Source: Candidatus Pacearchaeota archaeon (GTDB lineage: Archaea; Nanobdellota; Nanobdellia; Pacearchaeales; GW2011-AR1). From it: a DNA stretch of 64,000 nt. The stretch lies in contig JAGVWX010000007.1 in assembly GCA_018304105.1 (NCBI GenBank), positions 36,779 to 100,778 on the forward strand, written 5' to 3'. How positions within the stretch are numbered: the stretch's first letter is position 1; each line of letters begins with the position of its first letter. The notes beneath the pieces were generated by a model. It had not been told where the DNA came from. It saw only the letters and a program-made list of their open reading frames with translations, and made no database searches. Both the position numbers and the translations under genes were made by a program. Positions 2,582-52,268 of this stretch are shown here, in pieces.

Positions 2582-3510
2582 AAAATAAAAAAGGGATTTT
2601 CTTTTTGATGCTGACTTTGATTATAATCTCTCTTTTTCTTTTGTCGGTGACTTTCTTTTCAGAGATGGCTTTGAGAAAGAGCGTGCAGAAAAGAGTTGAA
2701 ACGCTGAGCGATTTTGTCAAGGCAACCGAAGACGATTTGCCAAGGCAGCTTTTCATAACAGGATTCAGGACGGTTTTTGTTGTTCAGAGAAATATTGTTG
2801 CAAGCGGAAATTATCCGAGTGAAACTGTTGAGGAAACTTTTAAGGAAGCATTTTTTAATGGAACTGTCGAAGGCAATGCCGAACCCATTCTGTTTGGAGC
2901 AACGTATGATGATTTGGTTTCTGATGTGCAGAGCCGGGCGAGGGAGATAAGCGCGGATGTTCAGTTTTCCAACGCAAGTGTTTCTCTCAGCCAGGAAGAT
3001 CCTTGGAATATTAAGATAGATTTTGTTGCTGGCTTTTATGCTTCTGATATAAATCATCTGGCTTCATGGAACAAAACACTGCATTCTGTTTCTTATATTC
3101 GAATCAGCAATTTTTCTGACCCGCTTTATTTGCTGAACGGCTTTCAGGAAAGAAAAATTATTGAGACGCCTTATCTGAATTTTCCTTCGGAACTGCAACA
3201 GCATGTGGGCGATTGCGGGGCGGAATGTTCTTATTATATGGCCCGCGTTGGAGCGCCGAGCTTCATTGACAGACTTGAAGGCAATTATTTGGTTCTAAAA
3301 TATCCGAATGAAGGGATAGAATCTCTCGTTTATTTCCCGGCGTTTCCGAATCCACCAGGACCTCCGTATAATTCAAGGTCGGTGGTTGATTATCTTTATT
3401 TCAATGATCCTACTTCTGGAGATTGTTCTCTTCCGGGGGTTTATTCCTGGTTTTGGCTGGACACTGAGCATCTGGATGATTATGGTTTTACTCTGAGTGA
3501 TTGCTCTTAA
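2572..3510 (+). CDS. Membrane protein with N-terminal TM (pseudopilin-like), overlapping the vWA gene
   Basis: 312-aa ORF overlapping the end of the preceding ORF; KKGIFFLMLTLIIISLFLLSVTFF segment. Confidence 0.6.
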   Translation: MVVKNKKGIFFLMLTLIIISLFLLSVTFFSEMALRKSVQKRVETLSDFVKATEDDLPRQLFITGFRTVFVVQRNIVASGNYPSETVEETFKEAFFNGTVEGNAEPILFGATYDDLVSDVQSRAREISADVQFSNASVSLSQEDPWNIKIDFVAGFYASDINHLASWNKTLHSVSYIRISNFSDPLYLLNGFQERKIIETPYLNFPSELQQHVGDCGAECSYYMARVGAPSFIDRLEGNYLVLKYPNEGIESLVYFPAFPNPPGPPYNSRSVVDYLYFNDPTSGDCSLPGVYSWFWLDTEHLDDYGFTLSDCS

Positions 3511-4208: not shown

Positions 4209-4362
4209 TTTGTTGAAAATCTTTTAGAATTATTTTACTCGCAGCCACGCTCGAAATTTATTTATTGAGTGCTCTCGCGTAACTGCTCGCCCTATCCTCG
4301 CCCAAATTCCTTCGCCCCTAATCAATATAATAAAACCTACAACTTAGACTTTTTTAACAAAG
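4209..4362. repeat. MITE-like intergenic element, copy E1
   Basis: Ends TTTGTTGAAAATC / GACTTTTTTAACAAAG; internal CTCGCAGCCACGCTCGAAAT and CTCGCCCTAT blocks shared with copies at 9948 and 19662. Confidence 0.6.
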
Positions 4363-9947: not shown

Positions 9948-10305
9948 TTTGTTGAAAATCTTTTTTCGAGTTGGTTGCACCCACCCACCCGCCCAGATAG
10001 TTTCGATTTGTATTAATAAATCTCTCAAATCGAATCATTTGTCGCAATTCCACTATACAAGACACCTACGGTTTCTTCTATGAAATTTTCCCTTAGTATA
10101 CTGCTCAGGGCTGGTGTGAAAAACCCTACTCGCAGCCACGCATCTTAATTGAATAAATTATTGGTAATGCGTAACATGCTCGCTCGCGACCACGTGCGAA
10201 ATAATTTACTAAATACTCGTCACGTAGTGCGCTCGCCCTAATCATCCGAATCCACGCACTTCCAATCAATATAGTAAAACCTGCAACTTGGACTTTTTCA
10301 ACAGA
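9948..10305. repeat. MITE-like intergenic element, copy E3 (long form)
   Basis: TTTGTTGAAAATC / GACTTTTTCAACAGAG ends; left ~95 bp nearly identical to 19662-19760; CTCGCAGCCACGC block. Confidence 0.65.
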
Positions 10306-17060: not shown

Positions 17061-17232
17061 CGCTTAGATTTATTAACGTTAATTCTTAATATAAAATATC
17101 GATGTTGCGCGGCGCAATAGGACACCCCTATTCGTGGCTGGTGTCACAAATATTTGACTCGCCGTTGGAATTGCTGCGAGTCTTAATTTGTTGGCTCATT
17201 GCATTTGCCGTGTGATGCGATAACAAACTAAA

Positions 17233-19632
17233 ATGACACATGTTATTGACCCGAAAGAAAAACAGAAGCTTGAAGATTTGATTGAACTACTTGGAAGTAT
17301 AAAAGGAAGACACACGGAGCTTGTTACTGTTTTGATTCCTGCCGGGGCGAACATTAACTTGATTCAGAGACAGCTCGAAGGCGAGAAGTCGACGGCTTCG
17401 AACATTAAGTCTGCTTCGACGAGGAAGAATGTTATTTCTGCGCTCGATATGATAATTCGAGAGATGAAAGGAATAAGGCAAACGCCGCCTAATGGGCTTG
17501 CGCTTTTTTGCGGGAACATCTCAGAGAAAGAAGGCTTTCCAGACATTCAGTTGTGGAATTATGAACCGCCAAAGCCGTTGAATGTAAAGATTTACAGATG
17601 TGATCAGGAATTTATTATTGAACCTTTGAAGGAAATGGTTGCGATTGATGAAGTTTATGGATTGATTGTTATTGACCGGCAGCAGGCGACGATTGGCTTG
17701 CTCGAGGGAAGTCAGATAAAAGTTTTGCAGAAGCTGACTTCGGGAGTTCCGGGGAAAGTTAGGGCTGGAGGACAGTGTTTGTCGCCAGATACTCTGATAA
17801 TGAAAGAAGACGGAGGGATAGTGCCAATAAAAAATGTCCATAACCCTATGATTATTATCACGGAAAATTTTAATCAAGAAAAAACTGAAGAGGCTCCCAT
17901 AATTGCTAAATGGGAAAATGAAAAAGAAGTTTATCAGATAACAACAGCCTATCCAAAATTAAATATTCGAGCGTCTAAAGACCACACTTTTTTTGTTAGA
18001 ACTGAAAAGGGCGTTATAGAAAAAGTTCTTTCGGAAATTAAGGAAGGGGATTATCTGCTCATGCCTGAAAAAATAAATCTCAACCTAGAAGAGCAGAAGA
18101 TAGATTTTAAGCCATTGATTAAACAAGAATTTAATATGAAACAAGTCAATATACCAGAAAAACTAACTGCCGGTGTTGCTAAAATATTCGGCTATTACCT
18201 TGGCGATGGTAATTATGAATTAGATAGAATTTCTTTTTCAGAACAAAGAAAGGAAGTTGCAGAATATTATAAGAAATTGATTGAAGAGTGTTTCGAAACC
18301 GAAGTAAAAATAAAGTTTAGAGAAAATAAAGGTTACTACCAATTACGAGCAGGGAGCAGAATTTTATCCCAGTTCTTTAGGAATGTATTCGATGAAAAAG
18401 AAAAAACGTTAAATGCAAGCATACCCTTGATTGTTTTAAAATCTCCAGATGAAATTGTAGCTTCTTTTATTGGTGGTTTTTTCGATGCTGAGGGGTACGT
18501 TTCAAAAAACAGGGTCGCTTTTGGAATTAACAACCAATTACTCGCAAGGCAGGTGCAGTTTGTATTATTAAGACTGGGTATTATATCTTCAATTAATGAA
18601 TATGATAATAGAAAAAATCCTTATTCAAAAAAAACACGATATACTCTCGCTATCGACGATTTGGAGTCTCTTAAAAAGTTCTACGCGCTAATAGGATTTG
18701 CTTCGGGTGAAAAACAAAAAAAGGTTGCCGGGCTTATTTCAATCAGAGGCAACCGCAATAAAGTAAGGCAAATTGTCGTCAATGGAAGAGAAATTGCACA
18801 GATAATCCATAATTCTGGCATGAACACCCGACAGTTTAATTGCCCAGACTTCTTTGTCAATAAGAAACAAATGAGCAAAGAAGTATTTAAGAAAAATATT
18901 TTGGATAAAATTCAAGACTCTGAATTAAGACGAAGGCTAGAGTTGTTTTATTTATCCAATCTTATTGCGGTTAAAATATCCTCTATTAAGTCGTGTGGTT
19001 TCCAAAAGACAGTCGATATCGAAACAAAAAACCATAACTTTATTGCAAACGGAATTTTGGTGCACAATTCAAGCCAGAGATTTCATCGTATTACTGAAGG
19101 ATTGGCGAAAGAATTTTTCAGGCGGGTTGCTGAAGATATGAAAAAGATTTTTTTTGACATGCCTAAGCTGAAAGGGATTTTGGTTGGAGGACCGATTCCG
19201 ACGAAAGAAGATTTTCTTGATGAGGGACAGTTGGTTACGAAGCTGAAGGAGAAGATTATTGCGATAAAGGACCTTGGGTATGTTGATGAGCATGGGTTGG
19301 AACTTTTAGTTGAAGCTTCGCAGGAAGAAATGCAAGAACAAGAATTGGTAAAGGAGAAAAAAATTCTTGAACGATTTTTTGAGACTCTTGGGAAAGATAG
19401 GAAAAAGGCGGCTTACAAAGAGCCGGAAGTTCGGCTTGCTTTGGAACGAGGAGCAGTTGATGTCTTGTTAATTTCTAAAAAGTTTGACAGAGATAAACAG
19501 AAAGAATTTGAGCAGATGGCGGAGAATATTGGGTCGAGTATTGTATTGATTGGGGCAGACCATACCGATGGGGAGCAGTTTTGGAATTTGACTGAAGGGG
19601 TTGGGGCAATTTTAAGATTTAGTTTGGATTAG
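17233..19632 (+). CDS. prf1: Peptide chain release factor aRF1 (eRF1 family) interrupted by an intein
   Basis: NIKSASTRKNVISAL (NIKS), GKVRAGGQ and SSQRFHRITEGLAKEFF flanks; C-terminal eRF1 domains. Confidence 0.93.
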   Translation: MTHVIDPKEKQKLEDLIELLGSIKGRHTELVTVLIPAGANINLIQRQLEGEKSTASNIKSASTRKNVISALDMIIREMKGIRQTPPNGLALFCGNISEKEGFPDIQLWNYEPPKPLNVKIYRCDQEFIIEPLKEMVAIDEVYGLIVIDRQQATIGLLEGSQIKVLQKLTSGVPGKVRAGGQCLSPDTLIMKEDGGIVPIKNVHNPMIIITENFNQEKTEEAPIIAKWENEKEVYQITTAYPKLNIRASKDHTFFVRTEKGVIEKVLSEIKEGDYLLMPEKINLNLEEQKIDFKPLIKQEFNMKQVNIPEKLTAGVAKIFGYYLGDGNYELDRISFSEQRKEVAEYYKKLIEECFETEVKIKFRENKGYYQLRAGSRILSQFFRNVFDEKEKTLNASIPLIVLKSPDEIVASFIGGFFDAEGYVSKNRVAFGINNQLLARQVQFVLLRLGIISSINEYDNRKNPYSKKTRYTLAIDDLESLKKFYALIGFASGEKQKKVAGLISIRGNRNKVRQIVVNGREIAQIIHNSGMNTRQFNCPDFFVNKKQMSKEVFKKNILDKIQDSELRRRLELFYLSNLIAVKISSIKSCGFQKTVDIETKNHNFIANGILVHNSSQRFHRITEGLAKEFFRRVAEDMKKIFFDMPKLKGILVGGPIPTKEDFLDEGQLVTKLKEKIIAIKDLGYVDEHGLELLVEASQEEMQEQELVKEKKILERFFETLGKDRKKAAYKEPEVRLALERGAVDVLLISKKFDRDKQKEFEQMAENIGSSIVLIGADHTDGEQFWNLTEGVGAILRFSLD
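17776..19068 (+). mobile_element. Intein (431 aa) with LAGLIDADG homing endonuclease, inside aRF1
   Basis: Starts C-LSPDTLIMKEDGG (block A), ends HNFIANGILVHN followed by S; endonuclease motifs FGYYLGDGNYE and IGGFFDAEGYVS. Confidence 0.93.
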
Positions 19633-19661: not shown

Positions 19662-19920
19662 TTTGTTGAAAATCTTTTTTCGAGTTGGTTGCACCCACCC
19701 ACCCGCCCAGATAGTTTCGATTTGTATTAATAAATCTCTCAAATCGAATCATTTGTCGCATTAGGATTCCCACAAACTTTTCGCTTACAGCGAAAATCCC
19801 AACTCGCAGCCACGCTCGAAATCAATCAGGACATTACTCTCGCGTAACATGCTCGCCCTATCCACTATGCCACTTTACCCCAATAAATTAGTAAACCAAT
19901 ATTTTGATTTTTTCAATAAA
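19662..19920. repeat. MITE-like intergenic element, copy E4
   Basis: TTTGTTGAAAATC ... GATTTTTTCAATAAA ends; CCCACCCACCCGCCC tract; CTCGCAGCCACGCTCGAAAT and CTCGCGTAACATGCTCGCCCTATC blocks. Confidence 0.6.
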
Positions 19921-20013
19921 TTTTTTCTTATTTTTCTGAATTTTTGATTCTTCTCTTTCTTTTGATAATCTTTATCATACATATTAAGTAAACTTCTGTG
20001 TAAAACAGATAGA

Positions 20014-20021
20014 TTTATAAG
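20014..20021 (+). promoter_or_regulatory. Candidate TATA box for the giant surface protein gene
   Basis: TTTATAAG about 25-30 nt upstream of the left arm of the leader inverted repeat. Confidence 0.4.
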
Positions 20022-20045
20022 GTAAAAGTCACACAAAATAAGTAT

Positions 20046-20400
20046 CCTAGGGTGTGTGTTGTGGTAACTGAATTAGTAGTTACAAAAGTAGAAGACTCAG
20101 TTAGCGAATTAGGTAGTTTTCAGAGTCTTACTAGTGATAATTTTAAACGGTTAATGCAGCGCAATTGGACACCAATTTTTGCGGCTGGTGTCTTAATTGT
20201 TGGTCTCGCTGCGCTCGTCATGCGCTGCATTTTTTCTATCAAATTTTTTAAACAGGAGTCGTCCACACACACCCTAGGAACCACAACACACACCCTAGTT
20301 GGACGACTCTCTGTTTCTTCTTTATCATATTTTTTGGACGGGCTGCCTAGCCACAACACATACCTTGGGAAAACACACACCCTAGAATTAGGCAGCCCTG
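20046..20400 (+). promoter_or_regulatory. Structured 5' leader of the giant surface protein gene
   Basis: 19-bp perfect inverted repeat CTAGGGTGTGTGTTGTGGT (20047-20065) / ACCACAACACACACCCTAG (20280-20298); hairpins GAGTCGTCCA/TGGACGACTC and GGGCTGCCTA/TAGGCAGCCC; SD CAGGAGGTG just downstream. Confidence 0.6.
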
Positions 20401-20427
20401 TTTTCCTTTTCTTTCAGGAGGTGAATT

Positions 20428-23400
20428 ATGCATTTTGATTTAGATAATTTGGAAAAAAAGAGGAAGGAACTGCAAGAGAAAATTGGGCAGTTTGAGGCGC
20501 AGAAGAAATTTGTTAGGTCTGCGATTGAGAAGCTGACTGCGAGATACAATATCGGGGAGATAAAGTTTGATGAGTACAAAGAAGAGTATAAGAGAATTTT
20601 CAAGGACAAGACACCGGAACAGTGGACTAACTACTACAATATCCAAATCAAGTCTTGCAACGCGCAGCTGGATTGGTATGATTCTGAAATCAGAAAAGCG
20701 AGAAGTCGATTTGGGAAGAAAGCGCTAGCTGAAAGAGAGAAAGAAGAAAGGCAGAAAGCGATTCAAGAAAGGATACAAACGGCGGAGGGATACAAGAAGA
20801 GCGTTATTGGGAACGTTCAGGAACTTGTAAAGAAGTACAACGCGAGAGAGCTGACTTATGAGCAGTATCAAAGCGAAACGAAGAAACTTTACCAGGGAAA
20901 TGAGCCGCAGAAACTTGTTGATTATTATGACGATTATATAAAGAAAGCAAAGAGCTTGAGCAGTTACGAGCCGAGAAAGAGCAAAGTAAAGACTAAATTA
21001 ATTATGGTGCTGCCTCTGCTTTTGATTTTTGGATTGGCAATCTTCTTTTTGTTTGGTTTTGTTTTGAGACCGCAGTTTACCGGACTGACTGTTGAGATGG
21101 TTGATGAAGTTCATACGACAACTTACAATGCTGTCTTGAATGAAAGCACGATTTATGATTTTGATTTGTCTGATGAAGGAAGTTTGAATTGGATTAAGTT
21201 TAATGGGGCGATAAGCAAGAAAGGAACAGTGAAAGTTTATTTGGATGATATTTTAATTTTGGATTCGGCAGATTTGGAAAGCGACGAACAATTTTCTGTT
21301 ACTGGAAGTTTGATTAGTGGTTTTGCGAGTGAAGGAAGCGATGCGGCCGATAGCGGAACCGACCCTAGTTCTGAAGGTGCTGATTCTGGAAGTTCAGATG
21401 GCGGGAGTTCAACTGAGCAAGCGAGTGAAAGTTCAGGCACAGAAAGTTCGGGAGAAGAATCTGCTGGTAGTTCAGGAGAAGAACCAACTGGAGGGCCTAG
21501 TGCGGAGGAAGGCAGTCAAACTGGAGAAATCTCTGGAGGAACCGAGACAATGCAGACCGGTTCTGAAACTGGAAGCAACGAAAGCAACGAAAGTCCAAAT
21601 GAAGAGACGAATGAAACTGAGCAAGAACCTGCGGGAAAGAATAATGAGACAGAAACTGCTGGAAATGAAACTGTTGTAGAAGAGCCTGGAGAAGAAACAG
21701 AGATTGTTGAAAAGATAAAGCTTGAAAATTATTGCAAGGAATCGTGTGACTTGAAAGAGCTCGGATTGAACAAGAGTTCTTACAAATTGAGGATTGAAAT
21801 TGAAAACGCGGAGTTTGAACTGGGCGAGTTGAATTACGAAATTAGTGTTGAGAAGGAAGCCGGCGTGGAAGAGAATGCCACGATAACCGAGCCGCCGGTT
21901 ATGACAAAAGAAATTCCGAATATTGTTGTTGGGAAGAACGGATATTATGAACTGGATGTTAATGAATATTTCACCGGAGCGAGCGAATATTATTTGAAAC
22001 AAACAGATAACCTTTCGACGAGTGTTTCAGGCAGCGTGATTAGAATTCAGCCAAGCGAGAATTTTATAGGAATAAGGGAAAGCAGAATTGTTGTTGTTAA
22101 TGAATTTGGAAGTTCCGGAAGCAATTTGTTTAACATTACGGTTTCTGAAAATGAAAGTGCTGTTGAAGAGCTGTTAAATATTACAGGCAATGCGACGTTT
22201 AATCTTACAACGAGACAGTATAAAGCGATAATCAATCGGCCTGTTAAATGGGTGAAGAAGATTGAACTTGGGAATTTGGAAGACGCGGGCAATCTGATTT
22301 TGGAAATTCCTAAGGAGTCTACGAATATTTCTATTAAGACTGGAGAGGAAGCAGAAGCGGCTTTGCAGGAAGCAGAAGATTATGAAGAAGCTGTTAACGA
22401 TGCTGAACGGGAAGAAATTGTTGGAGGAGGAATTACTGGAAATGTTGTTAGCGACTTGCGAGGAAGAAAGGGAATTGTCACAAGAATTATAGAATGGTTT
22501 AAAGGATTTGGAATAACTGGAAACGTAATCAGCGAAGATGAGCTGGGCGGGAGAATAACTGAAAGCAGCAACAGCAAGATTATTGACGTTAAGAAAATAG
22601 CCGAGCAGACTAACGAGAATGAAATCGCTGTCGAGTATTATACGCAGGCGCCTGGCGCGATTGAGGAAGATATAACACGAGGAAAGAGGATTACAGTTTC
22701 AGCTCCGGATGAACTTGGCTACACAGATATTCTGGCTTATACGGCTTTGGACAATTCTCTGCAGATGGAAAATTCTAATTCCTTGAAAGTTTACTGGCAT
22801 GCATCTTACGAAGACGCAGTTGCTTACGGGTATATCAATGAAACTAAGGAAAAGAAAGTTAAGAAAAATACTGAAGAAGGCACGGAAGAAAATATTGCGG
22901 AAGAAGATGCTGAAGAAAATGTTTCTGAAAACGCCGATATTGGAATTGCAAATGGAAGCTCTTTCCTTACGGGATTTGCTGTTTCGGGAAATGATAAAAA
23001 ATCCGGCGGGGATAATTCTAGAGATGTTCCTGTTAAAGGAACACAGGATTATTATCTTATTCCAATGGGCAGGGAAGTTTATGACATTGACGGCGACGGA
23101 AGAGTTGATTATGTTGAATGGGTTGTGCCGCACTTAAGCAATCAGACATTTGAGATAATAATAACTGATGCAGAACATCTTGATGAAAATAAGAACTTTG
23201 TAGAAAATATTTTTGACTATGTTAATGAGATAGACGGAATAAATTATAATATTCCTGAAAATCATTACGCAAGAGCATATTTTGAAAGAGAGCTAACCAG
23301 TGATAACGTTATTGATATTGTTGTAAACAGCTCTAATTCAACCACGATTGAAGTTTATGAAAAAGATTCTAATGTTTTAGTTGGTAAAATGGAAAACGTT

Positions 23401-26400
23401 ACTCAAGGATTTTATTACACTTCTTTGAATTTTTCCGGCTCGCAATCAGTGTTTGACTTAAAGTCAGTTGGGGGTGATGTAAACTATGATTATATTCATG
23501 ATGCAGCGAAAACTCTAGCTTCTGTTGCAATGTCAACTTCGCCATCGGGGAACATGAGCATTTTTGTTGGGGGCAATTTCACAATGACTTGCACTCCAGC
23601 TTGTACAGGGTCTGGGTCGACTCCGACTGTTACAAACAATTATGTATATTCAACAACAGCATGGTGTGCGGGCAGCAATATAAACATAAATTCAAGCGGG
23701 GTGCTGACAAATCTTTCTGTTAATCCTGGTTCAGGCGCAAGCTGTGGGGCAACAACCGCAACAATTTATGCAAATTCAGCAGGGACAGTTTATGTAAGAT
23801 GTAATTCAACAGAAGGTACACGTGTTGCTGTAAGCCCGCAATGTTATAACATTACTGTTAGCGCAGATACGGCTGCTCCTAACGTGAATATAACTTATCC
23901 TTTGAATATAACTTATAATATAAATGTTAGCGCATTAAATTACACCGTAAGCGATACTGACGCATTAAGCGCATGCTGGTATAGTTTGAATGGCGGGGCG
24001 GCGAACACGACGATAACCTGTGGAGATAATGTTACAGGATTGACTTCTACAGAAGGAAGCAATACTTGGAAAGTTTGGGCAAACGACAGCGCGAATAATG
24101 TTAATGTAAGTTCTGTAACTTTTTTGAAAGACACAGCTTATCCGATATTCTCTGCTTATTACGACAACAACGCAACTTTGACTGGAAGCGGAACAGGATT
24201 GTTCAATGTTACTCTTACGAATACAAACGGAACTGTTTTCTTGGAGATTAACAATACGAACTACACTGCTCTAAATGTTACTTCAAATGTTTATAATGTT
24301 TCTGTTTCATTGACGAACGGAACGTATTCATATTATTGGGGAAGCTGGGGAAATGGAACTTCTTATCTTTACAATACCTCTGGAATGAGAAGTTATACTG
24401 TAAATGCAAGCAGCGCCACTGGAACAAATGTCTGGATATCTGCATCTGCTCAATTATTTACTAATGCGACTGCTTGGTCTCTTGGGCGCGTGCCAGTCGC
24501 CGGTGACGATGTAATATTCAATGGAACTGGAATAGGGAGCGTAAATATCACAAACAACACAATGCCGCAGGATTTGAATTCATTCACTGTCGAAAATAAT
24601 TATCCCGGAAAGATTTATTTTGCGCCTTTATTTGCCGTAGGAACTTGGGGTTCGAATGCGGGAACGCTGTTGTGGAATGTTACAAATAATATTAACATTT
24701 CAAACGGAACAATGTATGTTTATGGCGATGGATATAATATCACTGAAACTTGGATGAATAATCCCGGTATGCATAATATAACTGATGATGGACATGGACA
24801 AGAGTGGCGTTCAGTGAACGGGAATATTACAATCGAAGCGAATGGGAAAATTGAAGGGGTTGGTTTGGGATTTGGACCTTGGATAGGACCGGGAGCACAA
24901 TCTGGAAAATCAGGTACATACGGGGGCAGGGGAAATTTAAATACTGCAGACCCCTATGGGAATGCTACTGCCCCAACAAGTTTAGGAAGCGGTGGAGATT
25001 GCGTTGGTGCTGCGGCAATAAAATTGGATTCACAAAATATTGAATTAAATGGGCAAGTAAATATGAGCGGCGCTTCATGTAGCGCAGATTCAGCTTCTGG
25101 CGGAAGTATTTGGATAAAAAGTAATTCCATAGTAGGTAACGGAGTTCTGCGAGCAGATAGCGGTTCAAGCGGTATAAGGGGTGGTGGTGGTGGAAGAATA
25201 AGATTGGAATATGGAAATTCAATGAATTACACGGGCACAACTTCTATGATGGGGGCGAGAGTTGGAACTACTTCAGGAAGAGAGGGGACTTTAACATTTA
25301 CTAATAACACTTGGCCTTCTAATTGGGATTTAAAAGGAAATATAGGGTTGCTTGGAGGGAATTATGGCGACGGAAGCGTTGTAAACATTTTGGGAGATTT
25401 CAATACAAATAATTTTAATGTGACAATCTATGGAGACTGCTTTTACAATAAGACAAATCCAATAACGTGCCATAATACAACATCAGATGGAAAAGGAATT
25501 TGGCTTAATGCAAGTGGAAATATCACAATATCATCTTCTTCAATGTTAGATGGGATTGGATTAGGTTTCCCAGCTTCTACTGGACCTGGAACTAGCACGG
25601 GGGGTTCTTACGGAGGCAAGGCGGTTACTGGTGGTTCAACTTATGGAAATGAAACAATGCCGGTAAGCCTAGGAAGTGGGGGGGGAACTTCTGGAGGTTC
25701 TGCAGTGACAATAGAAGCACTCGGTTTTGTAAGAATGGATGGAAAAATTAATGTTTCGGGCACAGATAATGGTGGAGCCTACAATGGTGCTGGCGGTTCA
25801 ATCTGGATAAAAGCCAGTAATATTACTGGAACTGGAGTTTTGATTGCAGTTGGCGGCGGAATATATGGCGGAGGAGGAGGAGGAAGAATTGCACTTACTT
25901 CAACAAACATTATAGATTATGGTGGAATAATACTTAATACCGGTGGAATCTCAACTTCGAATAAAGATGGTTCAGGCGGCACGGTCTACATAAATGCAAG
26001 CACATCAATAATAATCTCTGGAAATATTTCTGTTGTGGGAAGAAATGGAACTTCTGGAAGTGGGCAGACAATTAATGTTACTGCTCCTCTTTTGACTTTG
26101 TCAGGAATATATAATGCATCTAGGATAAATCAAAGTGTTGCAGGAACAAGCGAAGGCAGAATAACTTTGAATTATACAGACTGTTCTTCAAACTTCACGA
26201 ACGCTGTTTTTAATCCCGATGTAATTTGGTTGAATACAACTGCTTGTGGAGGGGGTACGACATATTCACTTTATCTTCCTTCCTATATAACATCTAACTT
26301 CCAAGTTAATGGTTCTGTTAATGTATCGCTTGTAAACGGCTCCTCGTATACTGACGACCAGTTTGTTAATTTCACTAACGCAACTTACGGAAAAAGACTG

Positions 26401-29400
26401 CAGATTTATGGACAATTTTCTTCGGGAAATGTAGACTTAACGAATATGACTCTTAATATGACTGATACAAAAACGGTTGTGGATTTATCTACGGTTTCCG
26501 GAATTGCAACGAACCATACGATATTTATTCCAAACAACCGCAATGCAGGAGTTGATATATGCCCGTCAGCCAAAACTCTCTCGGATTTAAACGTCAGCTG
26601 TCCGAATAAACTAAGCTTTAGTTATGCGGAACTTTCTGCTGGAACATGGAAGAGTGGGATTTTGGCGAGCGTGGAAGGAACATTGTATAAGATTGAGAAT
26701 CTAACCGGTTCTGGCGGAGGAGAAGACTTTACGCCACCGAATATAAATTTCACAAATCCGACGCTGAGCAACGGAACAGCGCAGACGGCAAATTCAATTT
26801 ATGTTAATGTTTCTTCATCTGACGCAAGCGACCATTACACATTTGCTGATTTTGACAGAAATGTCTTGCTGTGGATGAGAATGGATGATACGAATAGTTC
26901 TGGAGATCCAACAGATATTTCTTCATGGAGCAATAACGGAAGCAAAGTTGGAGGAGCAGTAATTAATTCTACTTCCGGGAAATTTGGAAATGGGACTTAT
27001 TTTGATGGAAGCAACGATTTAATTAATGTTTCCAATAGCGCATCGCTGGCTTTCAATGCCGCAGGAAATTATACATGGTCTATGTGGGTGTATCCGACGA
27101 CAGTGGACGCTTCACATGGCGGAATTCTTCAAAAATGTGTTGCAACCGGCAGTGGCCAGAAAGGATATAGTATTTATTTAGAAAATCAGGGAGGAGTTAA
27201 GCTCTTTTTTGGGGATTGTGGTTGGGTTGCTACAACCTACGCTGGACCTGCGGTCTCTTTGAATACCTGGACACATCTCGCAATCAGCTATTCTAACAAA
27301 AAGTTTACCTTTTACAAAAACGGGGTGGGGTCGGCGGGCAGCACTATTTCAGGCTTTACAAGCGAGAATCAATTTCCTTTGTACGTTGGGCAAGGCGTTG
27401 AATCTGCGAATACAGGCGCAACTTTACATTTTTCCGGCATGATTGATGATGTAAGTATTTTTAATAGAAATTTGAGCTCGCAGGAAGTTGCCGCGTTGTA
27501 CAACGCAACAGCGAATCAATACTATAATAATTTCACTAATTTAGTTAGTGGGGCGCATACATTTACAGGTTATGCTGTTGATGCTGCAGGAAACAAGAAC
27601 CAGACTGAAGAGAGGACAGTAACGATTGATACGACGATACCGCAAATTAATTTCACGAATCCTACGCCGAGCAACGGAAGCTCGCAATCGAACACAGATA
27701 TTTATGTTAATGTCAGCTCGAGCGATTCTTCGCAGCATTATACTTTTGTTGACTTTGACAATGATTTGTTTTTGCGCTACACGATGGACGATGTGAATTC
27801 CAGTGGAGACCCAACTGATTTATCTTTCAATTCATATAATGGAAGCAGAGTCGGAGCGGCGTCGCAGACCAGCAACGGATATTTTGGAAAAGGATTTAGC
27901 GTTGACGGACCTTCTTCTGTTTATGTCGCGGCTCCAACGATAAGCAATATGAACTTTACAATAAACGGCTTCACTCATTCGATGTGGGCAAAGTTTGACA
28001 GCCCCCCTAGCGCAGGACAGACGGATTATGTAGACTACGTTTATGCAGGAACTTCTGACGCCTTCTTTTTCAGAGTCGCAGAAAGCTTGGGAACGTACAG
28101 CCTCTCAGCTTATGGAGAAATGAATAATGATGCATTTACTGTCACAAAGTCGGGAATGAGCCTTGCAGAATTGACGGGAGGATGGCATCATCTTATTTCG
28201 GTTTACAATAAAACAGACGTGATATTTTATGTTGATGGAGTTGAAATTGGCTCTGACGGGACATCGAATGTTCAGACGGACACTAATTTTGAGCTGAACT
28301 TTTTCGGTTATGATATGACTGGAAAAATTGACGATGTGTTATTGTTTAACCGTTCTTTTTCAAGCCAAGAGGTATTGGCAATGTACGATGCTTCTGCAAA
28401 CCAATACTATCGTAATTTCACAGGCCTTGCGGACGGAGCGCACACAATTAAGGGATATACAATTGACAGAGCGGGAAATAAGAACCAGACCGAAACCAGA
28501 ATGATAACTGTAGTTCTTCCAGACACAACGCCTCCGAATATTAATTTCACAAATCCTACTCCAACGAATGCCTCAACGCAAACATGGAATTCAATTTATG
28601 TAAATGTTTCAACAAATGATTCTTCAGAGCATTATGCGTTTGTTGATTTTGACAAGTCACTTTTGTTGTGGATGAGGATGGACGACTTGAATGCGAGCAA
28701 TGACCCATATGATTTGTCTTCTTGGAGCAATAACGGAAGCAAGCAGGGGAACGCGGCGCAGAGCAGTTCGGGGGCGTTCGGGGAGAGCTTTACATTTGAT
28801 GGGAACGGAGATTATATTTTAGTAAAGAATGAAAGCAATCTTGCGTTCAATGCGACAGGAAATTATACTTGGTCTGCGTGGGTTTATCCGATTGGAATTA
28901 CACAAGGCGTAACGAATACAGGAGGGGTATTTGGGAAGTGTGCTGCAACTGCGGGCTCTAATCAGAAAGGGTATTCTATTTATTTGAATCCTGGCAGGAA
29001 TGTTGTGTTCGGGGATTGCGACTATACTGCAACAGTGAGAACAAGCACGGGAACTGTAACATTAAATCAATGGAATCATGTTTTGGTTAATTATACAAAT
29101 AAAGCGATGACGTTTTATATTAATGGAGTCGCGTCAGGAAGCGGCGCTCCAATTACAAGTCTGGGAAGCGAATCGACATTTAATTTGACGATTGGTTCTG
29201 GAGTTGAATCGTCTGCATCGGGGGTAACATTGTGGTTTAATGGTTCTATTGATGATGCGATGATTTTCAACCGTTCATTGTCCATCTCGGAGATTTCTGC
29301 TTTGTATAACGCTTCTGCAAATCAATATTATAATAACTTTACAGGATTGAGTTCCGGAGGCCATAATTTTACAGGTTATGCTGTTGATACGGCAGGAAAT

Positions 29401-30795
29401 AAGAATCAGACGGAGCAGAGACAAGTAACTGTTGATTTAAGCGCAGCTCCTACAATTCCTTACGTGTCTGCGATTGCGGATACAAATCCAATAGAAAATA
29501 ATGCGACGCCGATAACATTTGTTGCAACCGTCAATGACGCGAATGGTGCGAGCGACATCAATGTTACCGGCGTGAATGCAAACTTCACTCGTGTTGGAGA
29601 GGCGTTAAGACAAAACCTAACCTGCGTAAATTTAAGCGGACAAGACACAGCAACGTCCAAGAACTTCTCTTGTTCAATAGAGATGTGGTATTTTGACTAC
29701 GCTGGAAATTGGAATATCACAATAGGGGCGAGTGACCAAGGCGGACTTGGTGCGGTTAATGGCACGACTACATTCTCTTACGGTTCTTTGTCTGCAATGG
29801 TATTGTCGCCAAACAATATTAATTTTGGAAATGCAGGAAGCTCGCAGGCTAATGTAATCGGGCCGTACACGCAGGTGAATAACACTGGAAATTATAACGC
29901 AACTAATCTTTCTATTATGGGAATGAATCTGCTTGGGCAAGACGATAGCAGCGTTGTTTTTGCTGTTGAGAACTTTACGGCAGGAACTGATCCGGCCGAA
30001 GGCTCTCCGCCGCCTTCATGTAATGTTGCCGGGGGAACCGCTACAAGATTAATCAATGGCTCTTATGTTAACATCACTGGCTCAAGCCTGCTGAGAGGAA
30101 ATCATTCAGTCAACGACAATTCTACAGGACAGGAAAATATTTATTATTGCATTCCAAGCGTTCCGAATCTGCCAACTCAGGCGTATAGCACTTACGATTC
30201 CGGAACTTCTCAGGCGTTTGAGTGGACAATCAAAATTGCTCTTGCAGTCTTCGTAAGAAAACTCAAGAGAAAGAAGAACCGCAAAGAAATCTTAAGCGAA
30301 TTGAAGAAGAGACTACGCGGAGAGCTTGGAATTGAGAAGCTTGCGCTGCTGGACGAGAAACTGAAGGAAGAACAAGGCGTGAGCCTGTCAGAAATGTTGA
30401 GCGATGTAAGAAGAGAGAAAGAGGCACTGCAGATTCCAATTGATGTATTCAGGCAGGACATAGGACCTTCTGAAGCGCTATGCAAGTATCTGAAAGAGAA
30501 TGTTGGATTCAATTACAGCGAGATTGCCGATGCATTGAATAGAGATGACAGAACTGTTTGGATTAATTATAGAAATGCTGCGAACAAGAAAGCTGCAAAG
30601 ACAAGAGTAAGAGCAGATACAGTTTATGTTCCAATAAGTGTGTTCAAGGACAGAAGATTGAGCGTCTTGGAAGCAGTTGTGAACTACTTCAGGAATAGAG
30701 GACTTACAAACGTAGAAATAGCCAGATTGCTAGGAAAGGATCCAAGGAATATATGGACTTTGTACTCCAGAGCCGCTAGAAAGTTACAAAAATGA
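20428..30795 (+). CDS. Giant (3455 aa) membrane surface protein: N-terminal coiled coil/SHOCT-like repeats, TM, Ser/Glu-rich linker, Gly-rich repeats, three LamG-like domains, C-terminal tandem HTH
   Basis: TM LIMVLPLLLIFGLAIFFLFGFVL; three repeats of LLWMRMDD..DLSSWSNNGSK...YTWSAWVYP...YNxSANQYYNNF; C-terminal IADALNRDDRTVWINYRNA and IARLLGKDPRNIWTLYSRA. Confidence 0.85.
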   Translation: MHFDLDNLEKKRKELQEKIGQFEAQKKFVRSAIEKLTARYNIGEIKFDEYKEEYKRIFKDKTPEQWTNYYNIQIKSCNAQLDWYDSEIRKARSRFGKKALAEREKEERQKAIQERIQTAEGYKKSVIGNVQELVKKYNARELTYEQYQSETKKLYQGNEPQKLVDYYDDYIKKAKSLSSYEPRKSKVKTKLIMVLPLLLIFGLAIFFLFGFVLRPQFTGLTVEMVDEVHTTTYNAVLNESTIYDFDLSDEGSLNWIKFNGAISKKGTVKVYLDDILILDSADLESDEQFSVTGSLISGFASEGSDAADSGTDPSSEGADSGSSDGGSSTEQASESSGTESSGEESAGSSGEEPTGGPSAEEGSQTGEISGGTETMQTGSETGSNESNESPNEETNETEQEPAGKNNETETAGNETVVEEPGEETEIVEKIKLENYCKESCDLKELGLNKSSYKLRIEIENAEFELGELNYEISVEKEAGVEENATITEPPVMTKEIPNIVVGKNGYYELDVNEYFTGASEYYLKQTDNLSTSVSGSVIRIQPSENFIGIRESRIVVVNEFGSSGSNLFNITVSENESAVEELLNITGNATFNLTTRQYKAIINRPVKWVKKIELGNLEDAGNLILEIPKESTNISIKTGEEAEAALQEAEDYEEAVNDAEREEIVGGGITGNVVSDLRGRKGIVTRIIEWFKGFGITGNVISEDELGGRITESSNSKIIDVKKIAEQTNENEIAVEYYTQAPGAIEEDITRGKRITVSAPDELGYTDILAYTALDNSLQMENSNSLKVYWHASYEDAVAYGYINETKEKKVKKNTEEGTEENIAEEDAEENVSENADIGIANGSSFLTGFAVSGNDKKSGGDNSRDVPVKGTQDYYLIPMGREVYDIDGDGRVDYVEWVVPHLSNQTFEIIITDAEHLDENKNFVENIFDYVNEIDGINYNIPENHYARAYFERELTSDNVIDIVVNSSNSTTIEVYEKDSNVLVGKMENVTQGFYYTSLNFSGSQSVFDLKSVGGDVNYDYIHDAAKTLASVAMSTSPSGNMSIFVGGNFTMTCTPACTGSGSTPTVTNNYVYSTTAWCAGSNININSSGVLTNLSVNPGSGASCGATTATIYANSAGTVYVRCNSTEGTRVAVSPQCYNITVSADTAAPNVNITYPLNITYNINVSALNYTVSDTDALSACWYSLNGGAANTTITCGDNVTGLTSTEGSNTWKVWANDSANNVNVSSVTFLKDTAYPIFSAYYDNNATLTGSGTGLFNVTLTNTNGTVFLEINNTNYTALNVTSNVYNVSVSLTNGTYSYYWGSWGNGTSYLYNTSGMRSYTVNASSATGTNVWISASAQLFTNATAWSLGRVPVAGDDVIFNGTGIGSVNITNNTMPQDLNSFTVENNYPGKIYFAPLFAVGTWGSNAGTLLWNVTNNINISNGTMYVYGDGYNITETWMNNPGMHNITDDGHGQEWRSVNGNITIEANGKIEGVGLGFGPWIGPGAQSGKSGTYGGRGNLNTADPYGNATAPTSLGSGGDCVGAAAIKLDSQNIELNGQVNMSGASCSADSASGGSIWIKSNSIVGNGVLRADSGSSGIRGGGGGRIRLEYGNSMNYTGTTSMMGARVGTTSGREGTLTFTNNTWPSNWDLKGNIGLLGGNYGDGSVVNILGDFNTNNFNVTIYGDCFYNKTNPITCHNTTSDGKGIWLNASGNITISSSSMLDGIGLGFPASTGPGTSTGGSYGGKAVTGGSTYGNETMPVSLGSGGGTSGGSAVTIEALGFVRMDGKINVSGTDNGGAYNGAGGSIWIKASNITGTGVLIAVGGGIYGGGGGGRIALTSTNIIDYGGIILNTGGISTSNKDGSGGTVYINASTSIIISGNISVVGRNGTSGSGQTINVTAPLLTLSGIYNASRINQSVAGTSEGRITLNYTDCSSNFTNAVFNPDVIWLNTTACGGGTTYSLYLPSYITSNFQVNGSVNVSLVNGSSYTDDQFVNFTNATYGKRLQIYGQFSSGNVDLTNMTLNMTDTKTVVDLSTVSGIATNHTIFIPNNRNAGVDICPSAKTLSDLNVSCPNKLSFSYAELSAGTWKSGILASVEGTLYKIENLTGSGGGEDFTPPNINFTNPTLSNGTAQTANSIYVNVSSSDASDHYTFADFDRNVLLWMRMDDTNSSGDPTDISSWSNNGSKVGGAVINSTSGKFGNGTYFDGSNDLINVSNSASLAFNAAGNYTWSMWVYPTTVDASHGGILQKCVATGSGQKGYSIYLENQGGVKLFFGDCGWVATTYAGPAVSLNTWTHLAISYSNKKFTFYKNGVGSAGSTISGFTSENQFPLYVGQGVESANTGATLHFSGMIDDVSIFNRNLSSQEVAALYNATANQYYNNFTNLVSGAHTFTGYAVDAAGNKNQTEERTVTIDTTIPQINFTNPTPSNGSSQSNTDIYVNVSSSDSSQHYTFVDFDNDLFLRYTMDDVNSSGDPTDLSFNSYNGSRVGAASQTSNGYFGKGFSVDGPSSVYVAAPTISNMNFTINGFTHSMWAKFDSPPSAGQTDYVDYVYAGTSDAFFFRVAESLGTYSLSAYGEMNNDAFTVTKSGMSLAELTGGWHHLISVYNKTDVIFYVDGVEIGSDGTSNVQTDTNFELNFFGYDMTGKIDDVLLFNRSFSSQEVLAMYDASANQYYRNFTGLADGAHTIKGYTIDRAGNKNQTETRMITVVLPDTTPPNINFTNPTPTNASTQTWNSIYVNVSTNDSSEHYAFVDFDKSLLLWMRMDDLNASNDPYDLSSWSNNGSKQGNAAQSSSGAFGESFTFDGNGDYILVKNESNLAFNATGNYTWSAWVYPIGITQGVTNTGGVFGKCAATAGSNQKGYSIYLNPGRNVVFGDCDYTATVRTSTGTVTLNQWNHVLVNYTNKAMTFYINGVASGSGAPITSLGSESTFNLTIGSGVESSASGVTLWFNGSIDDAMIFNRSLSISEISALYNASANQYYNNFTGLSSGGHNFTGYAVDTAGNKNQTEQRQVTVDLSAAPTIPYVSAIADTNPIENNATPITFVATVNDANGASDINVTGVNANFTRVGEALRQNLTCVNLSGQDTATSKNFSCSIEMWYFDYAGNWNITIGASDQGGLGAVNGTTTFSYGSLSAMVLSPNNINFGNAGSSQANVIGPYTQVNNTGNYNATNLSIMGMNLLGQDDSSVVFAVENFTAGTDPAEGSPPPSCNVAGGTATRLINGSYVNITGSSLLRGNHSVNDNSTGQENIYYCIPSVPNLPTQAYSTYDSGTSQAFEWTIKIALAVFVRKLKRKKNRKEILSELKKRLRGELGIEKLALLDEKLKEEQGVSLSEMLSDVRREKEALQIPIDVFRQDIGPSEALCKYLKENVGFNYSEIADALNRDDRTVWINYRNAANKKAAKTRVRADTVYVPISVFKDRRLSVLEAVVNYFRNRGLTNVEIARLLGKDPRNIWTLYSRAARKLQK
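26740..29440 (+). repeat. Three tandem LamG-like domain-coding repeats
   Basis: Copies about 26740-27640, 27640-28510 and 28530-29440 share INFTNPTPSN...YVNVSSSDSSxHYTFVDFD...SSQEVxALYNASANQYYNNF. Confidence 0.8.
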
Positions 30796-52154: not shown

Positions 52155-52268
52155 GTCCGAGTAGCTCAGTGGAAGAGCGCTTGGCTGTTAAGTGCGATAA
52201 TCGCCCATTCATCGATTTTTGAAATCACTGAAACCAAGAGGTCGGCGGTTCGATCCCGCTCTCGGACG
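52155..52268 (+). tRNA. tRNA-Asn(GTT) with about 42-nt intron (about 52191-52232)
   Basis: GTCCGAG/CTCGGAC acceptor, AGCTCAGTGGAAGAGC D-arm, CTTGG-CTGTTA|intron|A-CCAAG anticodon arm, GGCGGTTCGATCCCGCT T-arm. Confidence 0.88.

Follow-up and report, generated by a model that had tools for sequence, protein, structure and literature searches.

Ahead of a giant gene in a 64,000-nt stretch of a Candidatus Pacearchaeota archaeon genome (contig JAGVWX010000007.1; hereafter the window, from whose first letter all positions are counted) lies a 388-nt region that probably acts in cis as an RNA attenuator and has an upstream open reading frame (uORF) at its core. What can be read directly from sequence is a conserved layout, a complementarity between the ribosome-binding site (RBS) of the uORF and the loops of downstream hairpins that covaries between genomes, a uORF that stays open, and an overlap of that uORF with the start of the giant gene. 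An aRF1-type release factor with an intein, a 16S gene found with the archaeal small-subunit model, and homologues recorded as Nanoarchaeota/Pacearchaeota place the window in an archaeon. The leader layout is found in 13 genomes from five genera of one archaeal (Pacearchaeota/Nanoarchaeota-type) family, in very different sequences: in addition to the window, in same-genus orthologues from G003, G008 (L009), G002 (L010), G001, G006, and G004, in a second genus in G201, in a third in G099, G100, and G105, and once each in two further genera, in G016 (contig 14) and G023 (contig 4). The leader of the window and its surroundings contain the following features.

19976 to 19990, forward strand: upstream promoter box CATACATATTAAGTA, operator-like, the first of two copies, conserved in leader-bearing and leaderless homologues
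20014 to 20020, forward strand: TATA box TTTATAA, recognized by sequence and lying at a similar distance from the 5' element in relatives
20033 to 20044, forward strand: second promoter box ACAAAATAAGTA, at the predicted transcription start (about 20041-20044, from the TATA spacing)
20046 to 20065, forward strand: 5'-end element, the anti-loop arm (A, CCTAGGGTGTGTG; B, TTGTGGT), containing the putative RBS and start codon region of the uORF
20047 to 20065: left arm CTAGGGTGTGTGTTGTGGT of the inverted repeat, with its exact complement at 20280-20298
20061 to 20438, forward strand: uORF, 125 codons from the GTG at 20061 (another in-frame GTG is at 20052), crossing both hairpins
20153 to 20231, no strand assigned: inserted dispersed repeat (AATGCAGCGCA...TGCGCTGCATT), through which the uORF frame stays open
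20256 to 20309, forward strand: hairpin module 1, its loop carrying two anti-RBS copies (20265-20277 and 20280-20298)
20310 to 20337, forward strand: T-rich, terminator-like tract after hairpin 1, with 9 T within 14 nt past the stem
20340 to 20398, forward strand: hairpin module 2, with two anti-RBS copies in its loop (20351-20370 and 20372-20385)
20399 to 20415, forward strand: T-rich, terminator-like tract after hairpin 2, with 10 T within 14 nt past the stem
20416 to 20423, forward strand: Shine-Dalgarno sequence AGGAGGTG of the giant gene, with a pairing energy of -15.9 kcal/mol to the 16S 3' end
20428 to 30795, forward strand: giant gene, 3455 amino acids, characterized by Pfam, by an N-terminal model (A1) that matches twice, and by its translations

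The leader and its upstream open reading frame

An initial annotation of this DNA had described a 19-bp inverted repeat, two hairpins sharing a loop motif, a TATA box at 20014, and a Shine-Dalgarno sequence before the giant gene, and all of these are present. The inverted repeat (20047-20065 with 20280-20298) is exact; with up to three mismatches allowed, it gives two matches in the window and none in any of 100 dinucleotide shuffles, and the 19-nt arm matches only its own site and its partner. Hairpin 1 is a perfect 10-bp stem of GAGTCGTCCA and TGGACGACTC (20256-20265 with 20300-20309), hairpin 2 a perfect 10-bp stem of GGGCTGCCTA and TAGGCAGCCC (20340-20349 with 20389-20398), and the loop motif (A)ACACACACCCTAG occurs as four direct copies at 20264-20277, 20285-20298, 20355-20368 (79% identical), and 20372-20385. 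The same annotation had taken the leader as non-coding, which does not hold, as a uORF spans it completely. Its GTG start, either at 20052 or at the better placed 20061, falls inside the left arm, and the AGGGTG of that arm (20049-20054), about 6 nt ahead of GTG 20061, can pair with the 16S 3' end ATCACCTCCT. The left arm is thus, as judged by pairing potential, the ribosome-binding site and start of the uORF. The corresponding pairing is predicted in all 13 genomes, at -4.7 to -7.1 kcal/mol for the 5' element against the 3' end of the 16S gene located with the archaeal small-subunit (SSU) model. At the other end, the TGA stop overlaps the start of the giant gene, beginning 8 nt beyond the A of its ATG, and the two remaining frames of the window leader hold 12 and 9 stops.

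Maintenance of this frame is a feature of the relatives as well. Their leaders contain many stops in frames +1 and +2 with the uORF frame open, and in all 12 ungapped genomes the uORF frame runs open through the hairpins, the uORF of G006 ending in the 3' arm. Compared with shuffles, individual genomes have chances of 0.0003 to 0.09 of such an open frame, and the log10 p values sum to -24.8 over the 12 ungapped genomes, which are relatives and not independent samples. The assembly of the remaining genome (G003) is interrupted by an NN gap; no stop breaks the frame on either side of it, and three hairpins are read through before the stop at +8. Counted from the giant ATG, the first base of the uORF stop is at +1 to +8 in 11 of the 13 genomes, at -5 in G001, and at -40 in G006.

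A long open frame in every relative, often encoding a hydrophobic peptide, could also mean that the uORF encodes a small protein, perhaps a membrane protein, that is functional and expressed alongside the giant one, the repeats being incidental or autoregulatory. We consider this distinctly improbable: uORF lengths range from about 37 to more than 180 codons, similarity is weak beyond near relatives, and no uORF peptide is conserved across genera (best inter-genus E value 0.008, for G001 and G201). Dispersed repeats have been inserted in frame, and a first search with the uORF peptide drew mostly such a repeat rather than true homologues. In addition, the anti-RBS copies sit in differing codon phases of one uORF (for example, as HNTHPR and THTLV in G008), which argues that the RNA and not the peptide is under constraint. 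Since the peptides are unconserved between genera and the motif is read in different phases, the uORF seems to be kept for being translated and not for its product. Conserved regulatory codons or an arrest peptide were likewise not found across genera, and we therefore do not class the leader as a codon-sensing or arrest-peptide attenuator.

Covariation between the ribosome-binding site and the hairpin loops

In every genome, a loop sequence complements that genome's own uORF ribosome-binding site, even though the sequence of the site differs. The differing 5' sites are CCTAGGGTGTGTGTTGTGG; CTTAGGGTGTG; TAGGGTGTT with AGGGGAATT; CAGGGTGTG with GGGAGAAAGA; AGGTGTGTAAAG; and TTCTGGGG with TGAAAGAGAG, and the loops follow them: block A CTTAGGGTGTG pairs with loop CACACCCTAAG in G002, block B AGGGGAATT with AATTCCCCT in G006, GGGAGAAAGA with TCTTTCTCCC in G004, AGGTGTGTAAAG with CTTTACACACCT in G099 and G100, and TGAAAGAGAG with CTCTCTTTCA in G016 and G023. 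Stem sequences also vary between genera yet stay paired, with one to three hairpins per leader across the genomes and two in the window, and in G201 the 5' ribosome-binding site is additionally complementary to the 5' stem arm.

Pairing of each 5' end with its own loops outscores all 200,000 permuted assignments, for 12 genomes and also for 9 representatives; for the start-codon part (B) alone, the own pairing is the best of 720; and in dinucleotide shuffles of each leader, p reaches its floor of 0.0033 in 10 of 13 genomes and is below 0.03 in two more, all of these permutation and shuffle figures overstating significance because the genomes are related, with the covariation spread over five genera. 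Taken together, the pattern indicates that the loops carry anti-RBS copies, which have evolved in step with the ribosome-binding site in each lineage.

Complementarity at the 5' end could serve other purposes. The leader might protect the 5' end of a very long mRNA (about 10 kb), its first ~20 nt being held in loops that block 5'-to-3' decay and the uORF being a by-product, and the paired segment is indeed at the inferred extreme 5' end in every relative. This is improbable, however, since what the complement tracks is the ribosome-binding site and start codon, more than just the leading nucleotides: the start codon of G004 and G006 is 11-15 nt further downstream, and there the loop complements the GGGAG/GGGG segment preceding that codon. 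Nor would protection need T-rich tracts, or a uORF that is kept open and overlapping. Alternatively, the resemblance of the loop sequence ACACCC(T)/ACACACCT to the 16S CACCTCC could mean that the loops mimic the 16S anti-Shine-Dalgarno and bind in trans, either to the ribosome or to a different RNA, their complementarity to the 5' end being a secondary matter. That reading is very improbable, given that the complementarity reaches the start codon and first codons and varies with them, and that no second target of the 5'-element kind is seen, its pattern occurring once per leader-bearing genome.

A DNA element is the least probable alternative, and we give it very little credence. Inverted repeats, four motif copies, two conserved promoter boxes, and a tandem helix-turn-helix (HTH)-like C-terminus in the giant protein could together suggest either clustered operator sites, perhaps for the giant's own HTH domains, or an invertible phase-variation segment, the latter having been put forward in the initial annotation. 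The orientation is the same in all 13 assemblies, although no recombinase search was made; the closest congeners retain AACTGAA adjoining the left arm; and the TATA box and inferred transcription start lie outside the repeat, so that inversion would not switch the promoter. Moreover, the repeats change in step with ribosome-binding function, covarying as RBS/anti-RBS pairs, and the promoter boxes, likelier candidates for operators, do not belong to the repeat family.

T-rich tracts, the giant-gene start, and a model of control

Within 14 nt past the hairpins, 7-11 T are found in 12 of the 13 genomes. Archaeal RNA polymerases can terminate on poly-U stretches alone, hairpins not being required (PMC7289017), and termination at the T-rich tracts of the leader is for this reason plausible. 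Translational coupling through overlapping start and stop codons is established in Haloferax, and ribosome delivery is a proposed role of short uORFs (PMC12548453). A good Shine-Dalgarno sequence precedes the giant gene in 5 of the 13 genomes, including the window, and is absent or very weak in the other eight; coupling would matter most in those eight, and termination more in the window and the four others.

From this layout we infer a start of transcription, pairing in the cell, repression, termination at the T-rich tracts, a direction and kinetics of control, and a signal, if any acts beyond ribosome loading, that would fit together as follows. The mRNA would begin at about 20041-20044, and its first ~20 nt would hold the uORF Shine-Dalgarno sequence and GTG. 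In the OFF state, the loops would capture the 5' end, leaving the uORF untranslated and the hairpins folded; transcription would perhaps stop at the T-rich tracts, no ribosome would be passed to the giant ATG, and expression of the giant gene would be low. In the ON state, a ribosome would load on the 5' end either ahead of hairpin synthesis or during a period in which the hairpins are open, its transit would melt the hairpins, and reinitiation would follow at the overlapping giant ATG. The initial annotation had proposed an alternative-structure switch, of which the pairing between 5' end and loops stands, as it covaries in 13 genomes, but the uORF, the role of the left arm as ribosome-binding site, and the T-rich tracts had been missed. 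With these included, the likely mechanism moves from masking the giant gene's Shine-Dalgarno sequence to shutting down a coupled uORF and perhaps transcription.

Beyond the shared ancestry of the genomes, several observations weigh against this model. In G105, pairing is weak (shuffle p 0.13) and there is no T-rich tract (4 T). In the nested fold predicted for the window leader, a single long-range helix takes up the 5' end and competes with a hairpin stem. In several genomes the loop blocks are ordered A' before B', which precludes one continuous helix. Both blocks could then pair at once only in a threaded or partial structure, and the RNA may in reality pair in part, alternate between blocks, or pass its free 5' end through the loop. 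In the five genomes where the giant gene has its own Shine-Dalgarno sequence, coupling is not strictly required, and the stop in G006, 40 nt before the ATG, is at the limit of the range of coupling or outside it (PMC12548453).

The attenuator could be extended into a sequence-free archaeal RNA switch that senses ribosome loading, in which the free 5' end, bearing the uORF's ribosome-binding site, threads into hairpin loops of the same uORF and gives an all-or-none, history-dependent decision on a costly giant surface protein, with possible feedback by the C-terminal helix-turn-helix pair on the promoter boxes. This extended version is conceivable, though unlikely.

Distribution of the leader and dispersed repeats

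Among 200 genomes of the order, the combination of 5' element and promoter box is limited to eight loci, and all eight are true cases. A scan of 181 genomes with the loose pattern AGGGTGTKT gave mostly chance matches, and no 5' element was found in the viral contigs scanned. Many family homologues of the N-terminal domain of the giant protein have the same promoter boxes with an ATG directly or shortly after them, and in these the leader is not seen; nor is it seen in the upstream regions read from a wider phylum sample and from other orders. For this reason, the leader looks like something added between the promoter and the gene within part of one family. What it conserves is architecture and base pairing, not sequence, with no conserved ligand- or protein-binding core, and in Rfam it has no match at gathering score, the best permissive matches falling far under the cut-off.

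A further strong stem (AATGCAGCGCA/TGCGCTGCATT) had been noted between the arms in the initial annotation; we rejected it as a part of the switch, as it belongs to a dispersed intergenic repeat, with similar copies at window positions 17109-17162 and in L009, L016, L017, L019, L021, L024, and L025. A second dispersed intergenic repeat family occurs in the window at 19803-19863, 4237-4297, and 10118-10183, and copies are also present in relatives. The G003 leader (L020/L031) contains the repeat CTTATGCGAGCTGC...GAGTATTTGGGTGGCAC three times within hairpin loops, and a related copy is present in the G008 leader.

The giant gene, its promoter boxes, and its neighbors

The giant protein consists of a duplicated helical N-terminal domain, a hydrophobic segment, a long LamG and Ig-like part, presumed to be extracellular, and a C-terminal tandem HTH-like domain. 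Residues from about 3250 to 3455 lead from a short hydrophobic stretch through a basic run to two HTH-like domains; this C-terminus gives weak Pfam matches below the cut-off (Sigma70_r4_2/HTH_23) and is conserved in two orthologues (L009 and L010). The giant protein may be a membrane-bound DNA-binding regulator. In other orders (L133-L163, for example, L138, L140, and L142), the N-terminal domain usually begins a gene that comes directly after, and often overlaps, a gene with an HTH-like end, an arrangement suggesting that the same system is present there in split or rearranged form.

Two ACATAnnTAAGTA-like boxes flank the TATA box (window 19976-20044); they are well conserved and are also found upstream of many homologues. 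Across the ten genomes of the genus, the paired-box pattern is limited to the giant gene of G000, G001, G002, and G004, once in each. In leaderless homologues the giant ATG usually comes directly after the second box or within about 30 nt of it. The boxes are probably operator sites of some regulator, separate from the repeat family. Many tandem copies of a ACATAnnTAAGTA-like box are present in L091 (G037).

Elsewhere in the window, positions 17233-19632 hold an aRF1 release factor gene with an intein bearing LAGLIDADG domains (799 amino acids, compared with 386 for the intein-free protein in L009). A tRNA found by Rfam at 52155-52268 spans 114 nt, was missed by ARAGORN, and probably contains an intron.

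Relation to known systems and implications

Bacterial attenuators of the trp/erm type are translation-dependent and use leader-peptide open reading frames. The archaeal leader resembles them in having an upstream frame laid over alternative hairpins and terminator-like T-rich tracts, with ribosome occupancy proposed to decide the fold; it differs in carrying no conserved peptide or codon stalling signature and in that the captured segment is the uORF's own 5' ribosome-binding site. In hok-type toxin mRNAs, inhibition by fold-back involves the mRNA 3' end and processing, together with an antisense RNA. There, too, long-range pairing of the mRNA 5' region with a distant segment blocks translation, as is predicted here, but in this leader the 5' region would find its partner in several hairpin loops within the uORF. 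Gene pairs coupled by termination and reinitiation, including those of Haloferax volcanii, share the uORF stop that overlaps or abuts a downstream ATG, and the uORF may serve only to deliver ribosomes (PMC12548453); the uORF described here differs from these in carrying loops able to shut its own start and in preceding a giant surface-protein gene. The candidate leaders of archaeal ribosomal-protein genes (PMC7247131) are likewise structured cis-acting leaders in archaea, whereas here only architecture and complementarity are conserved, with no ligand- or protein-binding core. The Pacearchaeota leader thus has features of more than one class: a short open reading frame across regulatory hairpins and competing, covarying RNA pairings, as in attenuators (both as judged from sequence), and overlapping or adjacent stop and start codons, as in reinitiation pairs. 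It appears to behave like a uORF-coupled attenuator that matches no catalogued RNA family.

Little is known of RNA-level gene control in DPANN archaea, and built-in on/off control of this type looks like one not previously reported from these organisms. The leader escapes family searches such as Rfam because it is conserved by architecture and pairing and not by sequence. Its covariation enables specific rescue-type experiments. If the attenuator is real, uORF translation, transcription termination, and reinitiation would be joined in one element placed before giant proteins that likely function in host contact or adhesion.
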